Source of the DNA: Anaerolineae bacterium
GTDB taxonomy: Bacteria; Chloroflexota; Anaerolineae; Anaerolineales; Villigracilaceae
Direction: 5' to 3'
Assembly (NCBI GenBank): GCA_017303655.1
Contig: JAFLCE010000009.1
Span: 1 to 64,000, forward strand
DNA: 64,000 nucleotides
In this document: positions 10,814 through 17,732 of the stretch, piece by piece
Position numbering within the stretch: position 1 is the first letter of the stretch
How the letters are laid out: each line of letters begins with the position of its first letter
The notes under the pieces: model-generated
Databases searched by the model: none
What the model was told of the DNA's origin: nothing
Seen by the model: only the letters and a program-made list of their open reading frames with translations
Program-made: the position numbers and the translations under genes

Positions 10814-11413
10814 ATGAATAAGATTCAAGGATTAATTTCGTTTTACAGCCTTCAAGAATGGTGGTTTTCTACTTTCACCTCAGAAGAAAGAGAGTACATT
10901 GATAATGCTTATCAACCAATGGGCGCGCCGCCTCACACATTGACTCAAGGTGCAGAAACAAATCGTGAACACCCTGCTCCTGAATTTTTGAATGGACTTA
11001 ACACTTGGTTTAGAAGCAGTAAAGATTCGTCGATTGCAGAACGAATTCATAAAAAATTAATAGAGTTAGCCAAAGAAAATCCAATTAACAAACCTGGATA
11101 CTATATTGGCAGACATTTTACAACTTATGTTAGAGATTTTGAGATATTGAAGAGAACCGGGGAGTTTTCTAAATTAGAAGAGTTACTGCTCGAATTAGTC
11201 AACGCCACCGAAGAAGAAAGTTCAATAAACGGCATGGGGGTTGCACCAGCGTACTATAGCGAATTAGCGATACTTTATCGTAAACAGAAAGAGTATTCCA
11301 AAGAAGTCTCAATACTAGAAAGATTTGCAAAACAGAAACACGCAAATGGTGCTATGCCAGCAAAGCTATTAGAACGATTGAAAAAAGCAAAAGCACTTGC
11401 TGCAACAAAGTAA
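10814..11413 (+). CDS. Hypothetical helical-repeat protein, AT-rich
   Basis: A 199-residue soluble protein. The start ATG 10814 has AAGGAAG six bases upstream, two bases after the stop of the kinase-like gene. The second half is all helix with TPR-like spacing (Y-S-E-L-A-I-L-Y-R-K-Q-K-E-Y-S-K-E-V-S-I-L). The first part has many aromatic residues (S-L-Q-E-W-W-F-S-T-F). I do not recognise a family. Its codon use and AT content match the gene before it, so both probably arrived together. Confidence 0.55.
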   Translation: MNKIQGLISFYSLQEWWFSTFTSEEREYIDNAYQPMGAPPHTLTQGAETNREHPAPEFLNGLNTWFRSSKDSSIAERIHKKLIELAKENPINKPGYYIGRHFTTYVRDFEILKRTGEFSKLEELLLELVNATEEESSINGMGVAPAYYSELAILYRKQKEYSKEVSILERFAKQKHANGAMPAKLLERLKKAKALAATK

Positions 11414-11434
11414 TTCCCCAAATTCCCTCCATGC

Positions 11435-11470
11435 TATAATCCGCAATCGTTTGACCCAAATCACGGAGGA
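11435..11470 (+). promoter_or_regulatory. -10 box and ribosome binding site of the small lipoprotein
   Basis: TATAAT at 11435-11440, then GGAGGA at 11465-11470 before GTG 11475. The likely transcript could read on into the surface-acylation operon. Confidence 0.45.
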
Positions 11471-11474
11471 ACCT

Positions 11475-11861
11475 GTGCGCAATAAATTAACTATTCTCAT
11501 GCTCGCCCTGAGCATTCTTCTTTCCGCCTGCGGAGTAAACGCCTCCGGCTCAGCAACAACCGCCGTCGAAGGCTACATCACCGCCCTTGCGACCAAAGAC
11601 CAAGCCGCCCTCATCTCCAACTCCTGCGCCGACTGGGAAGATGACGCCCTGATCGAACTCGACTCCTTCGCCCTCGTCGAAGTCACCGTGGAAGGAATGT
11701 CCTGCACCGAAGCAGGCACCGACGGCGACAAGACCCTCGTCGACTGCACGGGCATGCTCAACATGAGCTACAACGGCGAACCCCAATCCCTCGACCTCGC
11801 CGACCGCACCTACGAAGTCATCGAGCAAGACGGCAACTGGCTCGTCTGTGGCGTTCGATAA
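11475..11861 (+). CDS. Small secreted lipoprotein
   Basis: A 128-residue protein with a short lipoprotein signal (hydrophobic run, lipobox L-L-S-A-C at residues 15-19). The mature domain of about 100 residues has the pattern of a small NTF2-like or DUF4878-type cone: a first helix T-A-V-E-G-Y-I-T-A-L-A-T-K-D-Q-A-A-L, and final strands Y-E-V-I-E-Q-D-G-N-W-L-V-C. Three further cysteines may form disulfides. The start is GTG 11475 after GGAGGA. It lies just upstream of the acylation operon but a palindromic spacer separates them, so a functional link is not shown. Confidence 0.65.
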   Translation: MRNKLTILMLALSILLSACGVNASGSATTAVEGYITALATKDQAALISNSCADWEDDALIELDSFALVEVTVEGMSCTEAGTDGDKTLVDCTGMLNMSYNGEPQSLDLADRTYEVIEQDGNWLVCGVR

Positions 11862-11946: not shown

Positions 11947-12060
11947 ATGAAGTTTCTCACCCGCGAAAACCTCCTCGCCCTCCTGCTCTGCCTCATCCTC
12001 ATCGCCCTCGTCATCTTCACCGCAGACTCGAGCCCCACGTGGATCTATCAAGGCTTCTAA
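11947..12060 (+). CDS. DltX-like membrane microprotein (37 aa)
   Basis: A gene below usual size limits. It encodes 37 residues: a short charged N-terminus (M-K-F-L-T-R-E-N), one TM helix (L-L-A-L-L-L-C-L-I-L-I-A-L-V-I-F) and a 10-residue tail ending W-I-Y-Q-G-F. Its TAA (12058-12060) is followed without a gap by the ATG of the MBOAT gene. In Dlt systems the small protein DltX, encoded beside the MBOAT protein DltB, ends in a conserved F-x-Y-x-x-F whose Tyr is thought to carry the acyl group across; that is recalled knowledge, not checked here. The same spacing of aromatic, Tyr and terminal Phe here (W-x-Y-x-x-F) and the position in the operon support the call. There is no strong Shine-Dalgarno. 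Confidence 0.65.
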   Translation: MKFLTRENLLALLLCLILIALVIFTADSSPTWIYQGF

Positions 12061-13488
12061 ATGGCGCTTGAAAATATTCTGATTCTCGCCGCCGCCTCGC
12101 TCCTCTGGGCAACAACCTTCCGCAACCATGGCAGGACGTGGTTCATGCTCATCGCCAGCGTCGTTGTCATCTTCTGGCTGCAACCCGCCCTCCCCATCCG
12201 CGGCGCCGACTTCTTCACGCCTCTCGCCACGCTCGTGCTCGTCGTCCTCACCTGGTTCATCACCGCCGACGACGAAACCCGCAAGCAGCGCAAAAACATC
12301 ATCATCCTTGCCATCGTCACTGGCGTTGTCCTTTTACTCAACCTCACCCGCTTCGTTCCACAAATTCAACTCTTCACCGCCTCGCGCCCACCTCAACTCG
12401 AAACGACTCTCCTTATCTTTTTGATAACAGGACTGACACTGTTAGCGTTATCTCGTCTGACGCGTTTCAGCGCTTCTTTCTTAACGGTGGGCTTGGTTCT
12501 AACCATTGGGCTTTTTCTACTCATAAAGATTCCCACCCTATCTCTCTGGCTCAGTTCTTTCCTGCGCACACTCTCCGGTCAATCACTGACCAACGTCTCC
12601 ATCAACGACTTCCGCTGGTTGGGATTCTCCTACGTCGCCTTCCGTCTCATCCACACCATTCGCGATAAACAGTCTGGAAGATTTCCCTCCGTAGACGTGG
12701 GTGAGTTCATCACCTACGTCATCTTCTTCCCCGCCTTCACCGCCGGACCGATTGACCGCTTAGAACGATTCACGAAGGATTTACGCGCTCCATTTGCAGG
12801 TCTGAACCTTGAAACTTTATATTCCGCAGGTCAACGCCTGCTCCTCGGCTTGTTCAAAAAATTCGTCATCGCCGACGCTTTAGCTCTCATCGCTCTCAAC
12901 GATACTAACGCGGCTCAAGTCACTTCCACGTTTTGGATGTGGATCATCGTCTACGCCTACACCTTCCAGATCTACTTCGACTTCAGCGGCTACACCGACA
13001 TTGCTCTAGGTATCGCGCAACTGCTCGGAATCAAACTCCCCGAGAACTTCGCTTCTCCCTACCTCAAACCCAACCTGACCCAGTTCTGGAACAACTGGCA
13101 CATGACTCTCACCCAGTGGTTCCGCGCCTATTTCTTCAATCCCATCACCCGCTGGCTCCGGTCTTGGCAAAAACCGATGTCTATCCCGATGATGATTCTT
13201 TTCACCCAAGTCGCCACTATGTTACTGATTGGCTTCTGGCACGGCGTGACGTGGAACTTCACCCTATGGGGCTTATGGCACGGACTTGGTCTTTTCATTC
13301 ATAACCGCTGGAACGACATGACTAAAGCTAGAGCTGCCGCTTGGGCAACTTCGCCCACGAAACAAACCATCCTCAACATCAGCGGAATTTTGCTCACCTT
13401 CCATTTCGTCGCGATTGGCTGGATCTTTTTTGCATTATCATCACCCATCACCTCGTGGCAGGTGATTTTGAAATTGCTTGGCTCTTAA
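12061..13488 (+). CDS. MBOAT O-acyltransferase (DltB/AlgI-like)
   Basis: A 475-residue polytopic protein that would pass an acyl group from a cytoplasmic donor across the membrane. Family motifs are present: D-F-S-G-Y-T-D-I-A-L-G, F-A-S-P-Y-L-K-P-N-L-T-Q-F-W-N-N-W-H, and the two-histidine region G-F-W-H-G-V-T-W-N-F and L-W-H-G-L-G-L with the catalytic His. The first ~130 residues add extra TM helices. The gene starts directly after the microprotein stop and heads a run of acyl-transfer genes, so by analogy with Dlt it is the channel-forming acyltransferase. The acyl group is probably not D-alanine, since the ligase downstream looks like an acyl-AMP ligase. Confidence 0.92.
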   Translation: MALENILILAAASLLWATTFRNHGRTWFMLIASVVVIFWLQPALPIRGADFFTPLATLVLVVLTWFITADDETRKQRKNIIILAIVTGVVLLLNLTRFVPQIQLFTASRPPQLETTLLIFLITGLTLLALSRLTRFSASFLTVGLVLTIGLFLLIKIPTLSLWLSSFLRTLSGQSLTNVSINDFRWLGFSYVAFRLIHTIRDKQSGRFPSVDVGEFITYVIFFPAFTAGPIDRLERFTKDLRAPFAGLNLETLYSAGQRLLLGLFKKFVIADALALIALNDTNAAQVTSTFWMWIIVYAYTFQIYFDFSGYTDIALGIAQLLGIKLPENFASPYLKPNLTQFWNNWHMTLTQWFRAYFFNPITRWLRSWQKPMSIPMMILFTQVATMLLIGFWHGVTWNFTLWGLWHGLGLFIHNRWNDMTKARAAAWATSPTKQTILNISGILLTFHFVAIGWIFFALSSPITSWQVILKLLGS

Positions 13489-13490
13489 AT

Positions 13491-13555
13491 GTAGGTCAGG
13501 CTTTTAGCCTGACGCTCTTTGAAATTGGACTCATGGCGGGTTACAAACCCGCCAT
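13491..13555. repeat. Two adjacent small palindromes
   Basis: GTAGGTCAGGC...GCCTGACG at 13491-13514 and ATGGCGGGTT...AACCCGCCAT at 13533-13555. Both lie between the MBOAT and SGNH genes. They are of the same style as the GTAGG spacers elsewhere. Confidence 0.55.
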
Positions 13556-13565
13556 ACAAATAATC

Positions 13566-14669
13566 ATGAATCAAGAAATCAAACCCCTCAACGTCCTCAT
13601 CAAAGGACTGCTCTTATTCGTCCTCTTCAACCTCGTCATCGCCGCATGGCAGCCGAGTGTTGGACAGTTATCCCTATACAACATCCTCTACCCAGGGCGG
13701 GAGCGATTGCCCTTCGGTGAGAATCCCAAACAATCCTATAACCTCAGCCTCTTCGACCTTGATGCAATGTTCGCTTCGCATGTCATCGCTGATACACCGA
13801 AAGCGGATGATGAATTTCGTGTCATCATCGTGGGTGATTCGTCGGTATGGGGGACACTACTCAAACCAGAAGAAACATTGGCAGGACAACTTAATCAAGA
13901 TAATCTCAACGCCTGCGGAAAAAATGTCCGCGCGTACAACTTGGGCTATCCAACCATCTCGATCACTAAAGATGTTATGCTGCTCTCGTATGCCAAGCAA
14001 TACGACCCTGACCTCGTCATCTGGATGACCACGCTCGATGCGTTTCCGTTGGAAAAGCAAATGTCCACGCCGTTGGTAGCTAACAATGAAGAAAAGGTCC
14101 GGGAACTGGCGACCAGTTACGGCTTAAGAGTCGAGGCGGATGATCCCAATTTCGAAGTCAAATCGTTCTGGCAGAAAACGTTTGTCGGCGACCGTCGCGC
14201 ATGGGCGGACTTCTTCCGTTTGCAAACTTATGGCGTGATGTGGTCTGCCACGGGCATCGACCAGGTCTATCCCGCTGAGTATGAAAAAGCGCAAACCGAT
14301 TTCGAAGCGGACGATAGTTATCACGACCTGACTGCGCCGCTGACCGAAGATGAGCTTGCCATCAACGCCTTGGAGGCGGGTTTCAATGTGGTAGGTGAGA
14401 CACCGATGTTACTCGTAAATGAGCCGATGTTAATAAGTTCGGGCGCAAACAGCGACATCCGCTATAATTTTTTCTACCCCCGCTGGGCGTATGACGATTA
14501 CCGCGAGATCATGGCTTCGTTGAGCCAACAAAATGGCTGGATGTATGTGGACTTGTGGAATATCGTGCCTGCAAATGAATTCACCAACAGCGCAATTCAC
14601 TTGACGCATGCGGGAGAGAACATGCTGGCAGGAAATCTCGCGCCGTATATTCTCGAAACTTGTAAATAA
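13566..14669 (+). CDS. Membrane-anchored SGNH-like acyltransferase (DltD/AlgJ-like)
   Basis: A 367-residue protein with an N-terminal TM anchor at about 13-27 (L-L-L-F-V-L-F-N-L-V-I-A-A) and a large outer domain. The block I nucleophile motif is V-G-D-S-S-V-W-G near residue 85, and the C-terminal histidine is in I-H-L-T-H-A-G. The Asp usually found shortly before that His is not obvious (sequence N-S-A-I-H). Proteins of this shape next to an MBOAT (AlgJ, AlgX, DltD, PatB) move acyl groups onto surface polymers. The start at ATG 13566 is preferred over upstream codons because the anchor follows directly. It is followed by a lipoprotein of similar fold. Confidence 0.8.
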   Translation: MNQEIKPLNVLIKGLLLFVLFNLVIAAWQPSVGQLSLYNILYPGRERLPFGENPKQSYNLSLFDLDAMFASHVIADTPKADDEFRVIIVGDSSVWGTLLKPEETLAGQLNQDNLNACGKNVRAYNLGYPTISITKDVMLLSYAKQYDPDLVIWMTTLDAFPLEKQMSTPLVANNEEKVRELATSYGLRVEADDPNFEVKSFWQKTFVGDRRAWADFFRLQTYGVMWSATGIDQVYPAEYEKAQTDFEADDSYHDLTAPLTEDELAINALEAGFNVVGETPMLLVNEPMLISSGANSDIRYNFFYPRWAYDDYREIMASLSQQNGWMYVDLWNIVPANEFTNSAIHLTHAGENMLAGNLAPYILETCK

Positions 14670-14671
14670 TT

Positions 14672-14732
14672 GTAAGGGCGACACGTTTTGGTTGATCAAG
14701 TACATTCATCATCATGGGCGGGTCGCCCTTAC
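14672..14732. repeat. GTAAGGGCGAC palindromic spacer
   Basis: Left arm GTAAGGGCGAC at 14672 and right arm GTCGCCCTTAC ending 14732, with a loop of about 39 bases. A variant of the GTAGGGGCG family between the two SGNH-type genes. Confidence 0.7.
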
Positions 14733-14749
14733 TTGTAATAGGAGTGTAA

Positions 14750-15676
14750 ATGAAAGTACGACAATTTTTTCTTTTATCTATCGTGTTGCTTGCTGCTTGC
14801 ACCACAGCCCCAACAGCAACTTCCCAACCAGAAAGCCAACCCAGTTCCACGCCGGAAGCGACTGAGACCGAAACGGTCGTAGCCGCCACCGAAGAATCCG
14901 CGCCGACACCACGCCCTACTCTTGGACCTGATGAATGGATGACCCTGCCCATCGTTCCTGAAGTGACGGATACCGCTCGCGAAATTTATGCTCGTGGCTT
15001 GGCAATGGGACGCGACCCAAATCATTTTTCCAAAGTGGGCGATTGCCAAACGAATACCGGTTTCTATCTTGTAGACTTTGATAATGAAGGCGCATATAGT
15101 CTTGGCGAATATGCATCTTTGCAAGATACGATTGACTATTACGAAGGTTCATTCTCTCGTACAAGTTTGGCAATGCGAGATGGATACAACGTCGCTGCAA
15201 TTCTGACTCCACTGCGGGCTGACCCGAAGCAATGCGAAAAGAATGAAAATCCCATTGCATGTGAATTTAGACTTCACAACCCAAGCATTGCCATCATCAG
15301 CTTGGAGACCAATTTTAGCGACCGTCCCGCCGATGACTATGGCAAGTACATGCGTCAGATCATTGAATATTCCATTGAACAGGGTGTGGTACCGATCCTT
15401 GCTACTAAAGGCGATAACCTCGAAGGCGATCACAGCATTAATGCCGAAATCGCTGAAATTGCCGTAGAATACGACATCCCTCTGTGGAATCTTTGGGCAG
15501 CATTACAACCCCTGCCGAATCAAGGTCATTCCACTGAACTGAACGACGGCTTTCATCTCTCGTTCTCGCGCAACTTCTTTGATAAGCCGAAGAACATGCT
15601 CAGCGGCTGGCCTTGGCGCAATCTGACGGCTTTGCAAGCATTGGATGCGGTGAGAGTAGGATTGCAAGAGCAGTAA
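14750..15676 (+). CDS. Lipoprotein with SGNH-like domain, Cys in the nucleophile position
   Basis: A 308-residue lipoprotein (lipobox L-L-A-A-C at residues 13-17) with a Thr/Pro/Glu linker to about residue 60, then an SGNH/GDSL-like domain. Block I reads F-S-K-V-G-D-C-Q-T-N, where most relatives have G-D-S. The C-terminal block is D-G-F-H-L-S, giving Asp and His in the normal D-x-x-H arrangement. Either Cys is the nucleophile or this is a non-catalytic acceptor or recognition protein. The start ATG 14750 has AGGAG upstream. Position in the operon suggests it acts outside the membrane with the DltD-like protein. Confidence 0.75.
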   Translation: MKVRQFFLLSIVLLAACTTAPTATSQPESQPSSTPEATETETVVAATEESAPTPRPTLGPDEWMTLPIVPEVTDTAREIYARGLAMGRDPNHFSKVGDCQTNTGFYLVDFDNEGAYSLGEYASLQDTIDYYEGSFSRTSLAMRDGYNVAAILTPLRADPKQCEKNENPIACEFRLHNPSIAIISLETNFSDRPADDYGKYMRQIIEYSIEQGVVPILATKGDNLEGDHSINAEIAEIAVEYDIPLWNLWAALQPLPNQGHSTELNDGFHLSFSRNFFDKPKNMLSGWPWRNLTALQALDAVRVGLQEQ

Positions 15677-15723
15677 AAAAAGTAACAAGTAATGAGTAAA
15701 AAATATAGTAAAAGGAATCATTC

Positions 15724-15969
15724 ATGACAACTGAAATCATCACCCCCATTGCAAAATTCATTGCTGAAAAAATCCTCAAGCAACCGAGTAAGGTTATTTC
15801 CGCGGATGAGTCACTCATCTCCAGCGGGTTGATCGACTCATTCAGCTTGATGGACTTGGCACTCTTCATTGAAGATACCTTCGGCGTCCGCGTTGAAGAT
15901 ACCGAATTGAATGCAGAGACGTTTGATAATCTCAATCAATTGGCTGCATTCATTTCTTCAAGAAAATAA
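15724..15969 (+). CDS. Acyl carrier protein of the surface-acylation operon
   Basis: An 81-residue acidic four-helix carrier protein. The phosphopantetheine site is I-D-S-F-S-L with Ser near residue 40, preceded by L-I-S-S-G-L. The remainder (F-I-E-D-T-F-G-V and F-D-N-L-N-Q-L-A-A-F) is typical of stand-alone ACP/PCP proteins, including DltC. It needs a 4'-phosphopantetheinyl transferase, not seen in this window. The ligase that should load it is the next gene. It is separate from fatty acid synthesis genes, so it is likely dedicated to this pathway. Confidence 0.92.
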   Translation: MTTEIITPIAKFIAEKILKQPSKVISADESLISSGLIDSFSLMDLALFIEDTFGVRVEDTELNAETFDNLNQLAAFISSRK

Positions 15970-15978
15970 TCAATTCAC

Positions 15979-16007
15979 GTAGGGGCGCAGCAATGCTGCG
16001 CCCCTAC
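15979..16007. repeat. GTAGGGGCG palindrome
   Basis: Arms GTAGGGGCGCAGCA and TGCTGCGCCCCTAC enclose one base. It occupies the spacer between the carrier protein and ligase genes without breaking the run of genes. Confidence 0.85.
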
Positions 16008-16017
16008 TGCATCTTAA

Positions 16018-17694
16018 ATGACTCTCCCCAATCTCCTCCAACGCTCCTACCAAGAAGTCCCCAACAAGACCAGCATCATCCTGCAGCATGCTGGTCAAGC
16101 GGACAAGCCTCTCACCTATCGCGACCTGATCCACGGTGCGAATCGTTTTGCCCTGACCTACGCTCGCGAAGGCATCAAACCCGGTGAAGTAGTTATTTTG
16201 ATCCAACAGCACGGCGAGGATTTGGTCTATGCCTTTTGGGGCGCGATTCTCCATGGCGCGATTCCTTCCATTATGCCGTTCCTTACCGAGAAACTTGCGC
16301 CCGAAAAATACCGTGCCGACCTCTCTTCATTAATCTCCATCACCAAGCCAACCACCATCGTCACCTATCCAGAGTTTGAATCCGAAGTACGCAGCGCCCT
16401 TACCGAAGGCGATTCGGTTCAACATGTAATTCTGACAAACACCATCGAAGCAGAGACCGAACCGAACTTCGACAACCTACAAGGCATCAAATCTTCGCCT
16501 GAAGATATCGCCGTCCTTCAACATTCCTCGGGCACAACTGGCTTGCAAAAAGGCGTGGCGCTTTCGCATCGCGCCTTGCTCAACCAGCTCAACGCTTACA
16601 GTCAAACTCTGCGCATCGATCCCGCCAGTGACGTCATCGTTTCGTGGTTGCCGCTTTATCACGACATGGGCTTCATTGCCTGCTTCCTCATGCCTGTATT
16701 GCTGCGTATTCCACTCGTTAACATGTCGCCTTTCGACTGGGTACGCGCACCGTTTAAACTTCATCAAGCCGTTTCGCAATACAAAGGTACGCTCACCTGG
16801 CTGCCCAACTTCGCCTACAACTTCTGTGCTCACAAGATCCGCGAGCGCAACCTCGAAGGTGTGGACCTTTCCACGTGGCGCGCCATCATCAATTGCTCCG
16901 AGCCCGTCCACTTTGAAAGCCACGACCTCTTCCATGAAAAATTTTCAGCGTACGGATTGAAACAATCCGCGCTGCAAACGTGTTATGCCATGGCTGAGAA
17001 TGTCTTCGCTGTGACTCAAAGTCCATTGGATGGAATCCCAGCCGTGGATGAGATCGACCGCGAGACCTTCATGACTCAGCGCCTCGCGACTCCGCCGGTA
17101 GCTGGTCAGCCTTCGATGAAGATGACCTCGTCTGGGAATCCTCTGCCCAATACCAAAGTCCGCGTGGTGGATGCAGACTTCAACGACTTGCCCGAGCGCT
17201 CCGTCGGTGAGATCGCCGTCCAAAGCGACTGCATGCTGACCGAATACTTCAACCGCCCTGACGCGACCGAAACCGCTATCAAGAACGGCTGGTATCTGAC
17301 GGGGGATTACGGTTACATCGCAAATGGCGAGTTGTATGTTTCAGGACGCAAGAAAGACCTCATCATTGTCGGTGGCAAGAACGTGTACCCGCAAGATTTG
17401 GAGTCACTCGCCAGCGAAGTGCCTGGCGTCCATGCAGGAAGAACCGTCGCCTTCGGCATGTACGACGAAGAAGAAGGCACAGAGGAAGTCGTCATTATCG
17501 CCGAAGCAGATTCAACCGACCCGTCGGAGCAAGAGGCGATAGCGGACGCCATCCGCAAGCATGTCACGAAGAGTTCCGCTATCGCGCTGCGTCATGTCAA
17601 AGTAGTCGATGATAAATGGATCATCAAAACATCCAGCGGCAAGACGGCACGCTCCGCGAATAAAGAGAAATTTTTGAAAGAACTTGAAAAGTAA
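16018..17694 (+). CDS. Acyl-AMP ligase (FAAL-like), loads the carrier protein
   Basis: A 558-residue ANL-superfamily enzyme that would activate a carboxylic acid with ATP and transfer it to the upstream ACP. Visible motifs are A3 H-S-S-G-T-T-G-L-Q-K-G-V, A5-like region C-Y-A-M-A-E-N-V-F, A7 L-T-G-D-Y-G-Y, A8 S-G-R-K-K-D-L-I-I-V-G-G-K-N-V-Y-P-Q-D-L-E, and a C-terminal A10-like lysine in K-T-S-S-G-K-T. The A8 region followed by G-R-T-V-A-F-G-M and the N-terminal pattern are like long-chain fatty acyl-AMP ligases rather than DltA. It is the functional counterpart of DltA. The start at ATG 16018 overlaps no gene and has no strong ribosome binding site. Confidence 0.88.
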   Translation: MTLPNLLQRSYQEVPNKTSIILQHAGQADKPLTYRDLIHGANRFALTYAREGIKPGEVVILIQQHGEDLVYAFWGAILHGAIPSIMPFLTEKLAPEKYRADLSSLISITKPTTIVTYPEFESEVRSALTEGDSVQHVILTNTIEAETEPNFDNLQGIKSSPEDIAVLQHSSGTTGLQKGVALSHRALLNQLNAYSQTLRIDPASDVIVSWLPLYHDMGFIACFLMPVLLRIPLVNMSPFDWVRAPFKLHQAVSQYKGTLTWLPNFAYNFCAHKIRERNLEGVDLSTWRAIINCSEPVHFESHDLFHEKFSAYGLKQSALQTCYAMAENVFAVTQSPLDGIPAVDEIDRETFMTQRLATPPVAGQPSMKMTSSGNPLPNTKVRVVDADFNDLPERSVGEIAVQSDCMLTEYFNRPDATETAIKNGWYLTGDYGYIANGELYVSGRKKDLIIVGGKNVYPQDLESLASEVPGVHAGRTVAFGMYDEEEGTEEVVIIAEADSTDPSEQEAIADAIRKHVTKSSAIALRHVKVVDDKWIIKTSSGKTARSANKEKFLKELEK

Positions 17695-17728
17695 AAATAA
17701 ACTCGCCGGATGGCGAGTTTATTTTTAC
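17691..17728. terminator. Bidirectional terminator
   Basis: GTAAAAATAAACTCGCC and its complement around GGAT form a hairpin with U-runs on both strands. It ends the acylation operon and the convergent aminotransferase gene. Confidence 0.9.
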
Positions 17729-17732
17729 TAGT

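Follow-up and report, generated by a model that had tools for sequence, protein, structure and literature searches.

The window analysed here is a stretch of 64,000 nucleotides from an Anaerolineae bacterium of the family Villigracilaceae in the phylum Chloroflexota (assembly GCA_017303655.1, contig JAFLCE010000009.1, positions 1 to 64,000 of the forward strand). At positions 11947-17694 it contains six genes for a membrane microprotein, an MBOAT acyltransferase, an SGNH protein, an SGNH-like lipoprotein, an acyl carrier protein (ACP) and an ANL ligase of the fatty acyl-AMP ligase (FAAL) type. The set resembles the Dlt pathway for D-alanine, and we argue below that in these Chloroflexota the acid transferred to the cell surface is probably another one, perhaps a fatty acid. 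The first-pass annotation of this DNA had described six genes in one direction with none intervening, and the positions of the open reading frames (ORFs) bear this out: all six lie on the + strand, with gaps of 0 to 80 bases and no further gene between them. The start of the set has to be moved, as it begins one gene earlier than had been supposed, with a small lipoprotein gene. The features are as follows.

11397..11861, + strand: small lipoprotein; its lipobox-like Cys is residue 45 of the longest ORF (Cys45), and four more Cys are invariant
11947..12060, + strand: membrane microprotein P0001, 37 residues, with a WIYQGF end; Tyr34 (codon 12046-12048) is the proposed acyl carrier
12061..13488, + strand: MBOAT acyltransferase, 475 residues, of DltB-type architecture, with the invariant His394 (codon 13240-13242)
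13566..14669, + strand: SGNH protein P0006, 367 residues, with an N-terminal hydrophobic helix and Ser92 in GDS (codon 13839-13841)
14598-14600, + strand: codon of His345 of P0006, the proposed final acyltransferase
14750..15676, + strand: SGNH-like lipoprotein P0003, 308 residues, with Cys99 (GDC) at the nucleophile position, Asp266 and His269
15724..15969, + strand: ACP, 81 residues; Ser39 (codon 15838-15840) is the phosphopantetheine site
16018..17694, + strand: ANL ligase of the FAAL type, 558 residues, with a FAAL-like insertion block at residues 343-364 (about 17044-17109)
17690..17729, + strand: terminator-like hairpin with an 18-bp perfect stem and a 4-nt loop

The stop codon of the microprotein abuts the start of the MBOAT gene, and the best start of the SGNH gene is 13566. 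The start codon of the small lipoprotein is uncertain and probably lies near 11475-11499. This lipoprotein has 43 homologues in 42 of 95 scanned loci, with five Cys columns conserved at 100%, and no Pfam family matches it above its cut-off. Because 35 of the 43 homologues sit within 250 bases upstream of the microprotein (four lie further away and four have no listed microprotein), its gene is part of the set.

The microprotein has a single hydrophobic stretch and the end PTWIYQGF. Among 76 loci examined (the window, 60 related loci, 14 from a contig scan and one plasmid record), 64 hold a copy ending [WFM][IVL]YQ[GN]F, and one further copy, at locus L065, ends WMYQGF. Partial copies lie at a contig end (L091) and at a run of N (L114), three loci (L073, L088 and L120) are truncated at or close to the end of their contig, and in six (L053, L054, L067, L087, L117 and L125) no microprotein was found nearby. 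A genome-wide profile search that covered six of these nine loci located the microprotein elsewhere in the genomes of L053, L054, L067, L073 and L088, and beside the other MBOAT copy in that of L087. Pro at -8 and Ile at -5 occur in all 64 copies and Trp at -6 in 62, while the Tyr (Tyr34 in the window, 64/64), the Q and the last F are invariant by construction, because the collecting pattern demanded them. The looser ending [FWYLIMV].Y..F, sought among ORFs of 25-150 residues in the window's first 30 kb and the 60 related loci, is found at 57 of 19,799 complete ORF ends, 53 of which end YQ[GN]F; since only four are background, the ending of the microprotein is not due to chance. Synonymous and nonsynonymous changes are scarce and do not point one way (12 against 3 in one instance, 1 against 3 in another), so that its status as a coding gene rests on conservation at the protein level.

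The microprotein represents a conserved family for which Pfam has no model. The Pfam model DltX (PF12459) matched none of 30 members at E ≤ 1, and it matched all three controls from the dlt-type operons L196, L198 and L254. BLASTP did not align P0001 to a DltX; hhalign joins the two profiles over the last 14 columns with a probability of 91.9%, the DltX side consisting of four sequences. As described in the sections of PMC12148441 on these proteins, DltB hands D-alanine from DltC to the invariant Tyr of the FXYXXF end of DltX, and PatA carries the same motif at its own C-terminus. The WIYQGF end resembles this acyl-shuttle hexapeptide, with W in place of F. In the Chloroflexota dlt-type operons L254, L255 and L268-L270, the microproteins end F[VI]YQGF, which is close to WIYQGF. 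The ends of the fused MBOATs of L128, L148 and L190 (Melainabacteria and an uncultured bacterium; PDSSPRFIYFQF and similar) weakly match the microprotein profile, as though the microprotein had once been a terminal helix of this kind that became detached.

The window MBOAT matches Pfam MBOAT at E = 2e-19, and the two PDB sequences that match it are both DltB. Against the DltB model TIGR04091 it scores 225.7 bits, below the cut-off of 375; the controls score 412.4 (L254) and 446.3 bits (L268) for MBOATs of dlt operons, and 158.8 bits for the fused-motif MBOAT of L047. His394 of the WHG motif is invariant (19/19). In a tree of 66 sequences, 23 MBOATs of this system fall together with seven taken as DltB (three by annotation, the others by operon, model or architecture) against 36 labelled as fused, with a support of 100/99; in two of the 36 (L142 and L144) the motif is not seen. 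The system MBOATs alone form one side of a branch supported at 88/58, L092 being a long outlier, and the other 22 are united at 99/95. The tree thus groups the window MBOAT with DltB, apart from the fused-motif MBOATs. The fused C-terminal motif occurs in none of the 76 MBOAT frames of the system and in 68 of 77 other complete ones in the fetched loci, a count that missed RPGIYGGF, wrongly included the annotated DltB of L194 and took in broken frames such as that of L089; the stretch after WHG has a median of 71 residues in the former and 153 in the latter. The window MBOAT ends soon after its core, unlike the second MBOAT of the same genome (contig C98), which ends RPGIYGGF and is followed by another large open frame. 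Fused-motif MBOATs (FIYFQF) also lie a few kb upstream of the set in two close relatives, at 3522-7367 in L047 (genome G027) and at 5817-7208 in L114. L060 (G208) carries a tandem of two MBOAT and two SGNH genes with one microprotein between them, and a second microprotein lies on another contig.

The ligase was placed in a tree of 50 rows, in which all 34 ligases of the family (two of them, L257 and L267, from genomes without the MBOAT) form one clade (100/99) apart from five DltA. Three FAAL-like domains join this clade, again at 100/99; they come from frames of the polyketide synthase/non-ribosomal peptide synthetase (PKS/NRPS) type in the window's genome. A long-branch warning applies among the genome's other own enzymes. 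The ligase therefore groups in this tree with the FAALs and not with DltA or the genome's other ANL enzymes. The 22-residue block at 343-364 is common to the genome's own FAAL-like domains, is a gap in 5/5 DltA and is mostly missing from eight other own ANL enzymes. Such an insertion is presented in the relevant part of PMC11837247 as particular to FAALs, which load ACP. Among the NCBIfam models, the best for the ligase is the FAAL model PRK09192 (366.2 bits, cut-off 600), followed by the long-chain-fatty-acid--CoA ligase model PRK07768 (361.3 bits, cut-off 572), and DltA is absent from the best 25 of 107. The best PDB row is 3kxw, named Saframycin Mx1 synthetase B, which is a Legionella FAAL; saframycin synthetase, polyketide synthase, McyG and acyl-CoA synthase are other names in the best 14 rows, and no DltA is named among the best 60 of 187. 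The Asp of the DltA motif FDLS was considered as an argument against an amino acid substrate and dropped, because in the alignment it shares a column with the Asp of YHDMG, the FAAL motif, and so does not exclude an amino acid.

The ACP matches PF00550 at 35 bits (cut-off 20.8), and its Ser39 is present in 46/46 homologues. With the DltC model PRK05087 it reaches 25.2 bits (cut-off 68; the control L254 reaches 81.6). The idea that this carrier is the only general ACP of the genome was rejected, as it is one of nine phosphopantetheine-binding places matched by PF00550, eight of them above the cut-off; six lie in two long PKS/NRPS-type frames and one in a short frame on contig C154. PKS/NRPS-type frames of 2985 and 3217 residues with FAAL-like domains are found on contigs C1, C23 and C75 of the window's genome (G000; L103-L105 and L110).

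In the SGNH protein P0006, Ser92 and His345 are each conserved in 52/52 homologues. Its AlphaFold2 model has a mean predicted local distance difference test (pLDDT) of 76.7 and a predicted TM-score (pTM) of 0.79. Foldseek places GDSL hydrolases first (E 0.0019 and above, query TM-scores below 0.4), and its best rows are mostly SGNH/GDSL hydrolases; esterases and, at E 0.023, the lipopolysaccharide acetyltransferase domain 6se1 are among the rows. No DltD family of Pfam or NCBIfam matched P0006 at E ≤ 1 (the DltD control, L268, scored 170.7 bits against a cut-off of 150), and phmmer at E ≤ 0.01 gave no match to it in three loci that have a Chloroflexota DltD. The SGNH-like lipoprotein P0003 has 69 homologues in 39 loci, with Ser in 37 and Cys in 32 at position 99 (Cys in the window), Asp or Glu at 266 in 68/69 and His at 269 in 65/69. 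Its model (pLDDT 79.7, pTM 0.77) retrieves mainly SGNH esterases among the best Foldseek rows. Some loci hold several copies of the SGNH-like lipoprotein around the set.

The distribution of the system was followed in 298 genomes of the class, the window's own included, with presence called at a best match of at least 200 bits for the MBOAT (our own choice), E ≤ 1e-90 for the FAAL, E ≤ 1e-3 for the microprotein and E ≤ 1e-15 for the SGNH protein. The MBOAT is present in 70 genomes, the FAAL in 73, the microprotein (profile A2) in 72 and the SGNH protein in 69; 80 genomes have any of the four. Two of the 72 microprotein genomes may not count, namely G021 (internal stop) and G090 (E = 9e-4). All 70 MBOAT genomes have the microprotein, 66 have the ligase and 66 the SGNH protein. 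By genus, the MBOAT (35 genera) and the FAAL (38) share 34 out of 186, with a Fisher p = 1e-31 that ignores shared descent. The expectation that the genes are kept together holds in that all four occur in 63 of the 298 genomes, yet the starts of FAAL and MBOAT lie no more than 12 kb apart in 34 of the 66 genomes with both; these cases span 18 genera and 9 families. Among loci fetched around FAALs of this kind, an ACP stands beside the FAAL in L253, L256, L260, L261 and L264-L266 and was not found beside it in L248, L250, L251, L258, L262 and L263; in L248, the microprotein adjoins the FAAL.

Across 350 genomes sampled from the phylum, many of them of this class, strong microprotein matches occur in 31 genomes, all of this class, and weak ones (E 0.002-0.006) in four genomes outside it. 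Two of the weak matches, in G425 and G439, come from dlt-type loci. G425 has a microprotein that passes Pfam DltX, an MBOAT passing TIGR04091 and a carrier above the cut-off for DltC; the ligases of both pass the DltA model PRK04813 and not TIGR01734. The best 14 loci of the contig scan all belong to Chloroflexota lineages, mostly metagenome-assembled genomes of Anaerolineales or Anaerolineae, and include the named strain Leptolinea tardivitalis YMTK-2; among the matches listed, those from other phyla share no more than 39% identity. The microprotein and the MBOAT encoded on a 212-kb plasmid of Leptolinea sp. HRD-7 are both annotated as hypothetical, and in both Leptolinea records SGNH, ACP and FAAL genes were not found within 10 kb. 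A search within a library of open-licence papers returned none on this gene set in Chloroflexota.

The system has in common with Dlt a ligase, a carrier, an MBOAT without the fused motif and a membrane-anchored SGNH protein, as well as a separate membrane microprotein ending aromatic-x-Y-x-x-F, and the MBOATs of the two are sisters. It differs in that its ligase is of the FAAL type rather than DltA, its SGNH protein is unmatched by the DltD model, its microprotein is unmatched by Pfam DltX, and two lipoproteins are added. Five Dlt features were sought, namely a DltA ligase, an MBOAT above the DltB cut-off, DltC, DltD and Pfam DltX, and none was found. The residues of the broader MBOAT-SGNH acyl-tyrosine shuttle are all present: the invariant His of the MBOAT, the Ser of the SGNH protein and the Tyr of the hexapeptide. 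With the PatA/PatB systems it shares an MBOAT, an SGNH partner and an acyl-Tyr hexapeptide; theirs, in the description given in PMC12148441, is fused to the MBOAT and served by an acyl-CoA donor. Here the motif is on the microprotein, none of the 76 MBOATs is fused, and a carrier and a ligase are present. The alginate protein AlgI is counted among the PatA/PatB-like MBOAT-SGNH systems. The ligase is like the FAALs of PKS/NRPS pathways (e.g., FadD32) in its clade, its FAAL-specific insertion block and its YHDMG motif; it differs in being paired with the free ACP of an MBOAT-SGNH set instead of a PKS or NRPS, and it does not reach the curated FAAL cut-offs, PRK09192 included. The first-pass annotation had read the locus as a Dlt-like set that, with a ligase resembling FAALs, moves another acyl group onto a surface polymer; none of the three outcomes it named as refuting this was observed. 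Trees and models sustain the Dlt-like set with a non-DltA ligase, through the placement of the MBOAT with DltB and of the ligase with FAALs; the different acyl group is a claim for which the evidence is the ligase family, from which we infer that it is other than D-alanine.

The DltA model scores above its cut-off in three of the 298 genomes, and the window's genome is not among them. In G089, a genome of the window's own family, DltA, DltB and DltD pass their curated cut-offs at about 17-21 kb of contig C50, with DltC-like and DltX-like genes alongside, and the FAAL, ACP, MBOAT and microprotein of the present system lie at about 53-57 kb of the same contig, some 34 kb away, its SGNH gene being on another contig. 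At least in G089, Dlt and this system are not alternatives.

Beside the observed gene set, its conservation and co-inheritance, its family placements and its conserved catalytic-type residues, we propose the following chemical steps, acid and acceptor. The FAAL-type ligase would activate a carboxylic acid, probably a fatty acid as its family suggests, to acyl-AMP and load it onto the phosphopantetheine of Ser39 of the dedicated ACP. At the inner face of the membrane, the MBOAT, with His394, would accept the acyl group of acyl-ACP and hand it on to Tyr34 of the microprotein, in a C-terminal WIYQGF that would face outwards; this step is modelled on the published chemistry of DltX and PatA. The acyl-tyrosine would then pass its group to Ser92 of the membrane-anchored SGNH protein, and from there to an envelope acceptor, most likely a glycan hydroxyl of the cell wall or surface. 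The two lipoproteins, one SGNH-like and one Cys-rich, perhaps assist the SGNH protein in this final transfer.

We regard it as likely that the gene set carries out carrier-dependent acylation across the membrane through an MBOAT/SGNH acyl-tyrosine shuttle, as a sister system of Dlt with a different acyl input. A number of observations weigh against this view. The strict FXYXXF is not matched, position 1 being W in 62/64 copies and F in 2/64. In P0006, an Asp precedes His345 by three residues in only 2/52 homologues (Ser or Thr in 48/52), so that the usual triad is not seen; neither SGNH model has a Foldseek match at E ≤ 0.001, and the rows for P0006 include unrelated folds. The ligase scores under the curated NCBIfam cut-offs, and only four of its best 14 PDB rows are named fatty-acyl-AMP (acyl-adenylate) ligase, with two named amino acid adenylation domain proteins. 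The co-occurrence statistics carry no correction for descent. FAAL and MBOAT are not within 12 kb in 32/66 genomes (three on the same contig and 29 on different contigs, the latter perhaps partly assembly breaks), a FAAL at E ≤ 1e-90 is missing from four of the 70 genomes with the MBOAT (G035, G085, G130 and G253, with listed completeness of 97, 90, 97 and 99%), and seven FAAL genomes have no MBOAT. These last three counts, together with the ACP-FAAL pair of L257 (G280) in a genome without the MBOAT, speak for a PatA-like arrangement, in which MBOAT, microprotein and SGNH protein are fed by acyl-CoA and the ACP-FAAL pair is merely co-inherited for lipid or polyketide synthesis. This is unlikely in our judgement, as the co-occurrence over 186 genera, uncorrected for descent, the proximity of FAAL and MBOAT in 18 genera and 9 families, the position of the microprotein in G232, where it immediately follows the FAAL and the MBOAT is on a different contig, and the grouping of the MBOAT with the carrier-using DltB instead of the fused kind all argue against it.

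The two amino acid adenylation rows, the alignment of the FDLS and YHDMG Asp, which makes an amino acid possible at that position, the sister relationship of the MBOAT to DltB and the DltX-like end of the microprotein would also suit a true Dlt pathway with a swapped ligase, in which D-alanine or another amino acid would be loaded by the FAAL-type enzyme and end up on a polymer resembling teichoic acid. Because the ligase falls in the FAAL clade and not with DltA, which is also missing from its best NCBIfam models, and because such a pathway would be redundant in G089 with its dlt operon, we consider this quite improbable. A further alternative keeps the same relay and changes the acceptor to a protein or lipid, for example the lipoproteins of the set. 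The presence of two lipoproteins, the small one conserved beside the microprotein, would fit it, as would HHAT and PORCN, which appear in the discussion of MBOATs in PMC11035591 as acylating proteins. Against it, PMC12148441 describes the pairing of an MBOAT and an SGNH protein in bacterial polymer acylation, and the Foldseek rows of P0006 contain esterases and a lipopolysaccharide acetyltransferase domain; we hold a protein or lipid acceptor to be rather unlikely.

What is new is a probable MBOAT-SGNH acyl-tyrosine relay with a carrier and a FAAL-type ligase, a sister of Dlt by its MBOAT. This split layout, with a FAAL-type ligase and another microprotein family, occurs in 70/298 genomes of one class (66/70 with the ligase), and it contrasts with the MBOAT/SGNH pathways other than Dlt, which the text of PMC12148441 on these pathways says to be without a similar carrier protein and a DltX-like microprotein. 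If the proposal is true, the acyl input is an exchangeable part of the acyl-tyrosine relay, and the envelope chemistry of the Chloroflexota, about which little is known, gains a concrete, testable handle. A small-protein family also gets named, a member of which, with its MBOAT, stands as hypothetical in one annotated record. Chloroflexota are said, in the portion of PMC13319060 concerned, to lack lipopolysaccharide synthesis genes, which makes a covalent acyl decoration of the wall plausible at most. More speculatively, and with considerable doubt, one may picture a second carrier-dependent envelope acylation pathway beside Dlt, in which long-chain fatty acids would travel as acyl-tyrosine on a 37-residue protein and be esterified to a surface polymer, giving a covalently lipidated Chloroflexota wall.

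The surroundings of the set were inspected as well. As a clue to the acid, neighbouring genes were counted among ORFs of at least 90 residues, a limit that places ACP and microprotein outside the count, with the genes of the set and presumed shadow frames excluded; the commonest family is an ABC transporter protein, at 11/82 loci. Terminator-like sites number 10, compared with a mean of 7.7 in shuffles, and the longest stem is that of the hairpin at 17690-17729, which precedes a convergent aminotransferase gene. Short inverted repeats lie in three gaps of the gene set, at 13533-13555, 14672-14732 and 15979-16007, the last with two 14-base arms that are 100% complementary.

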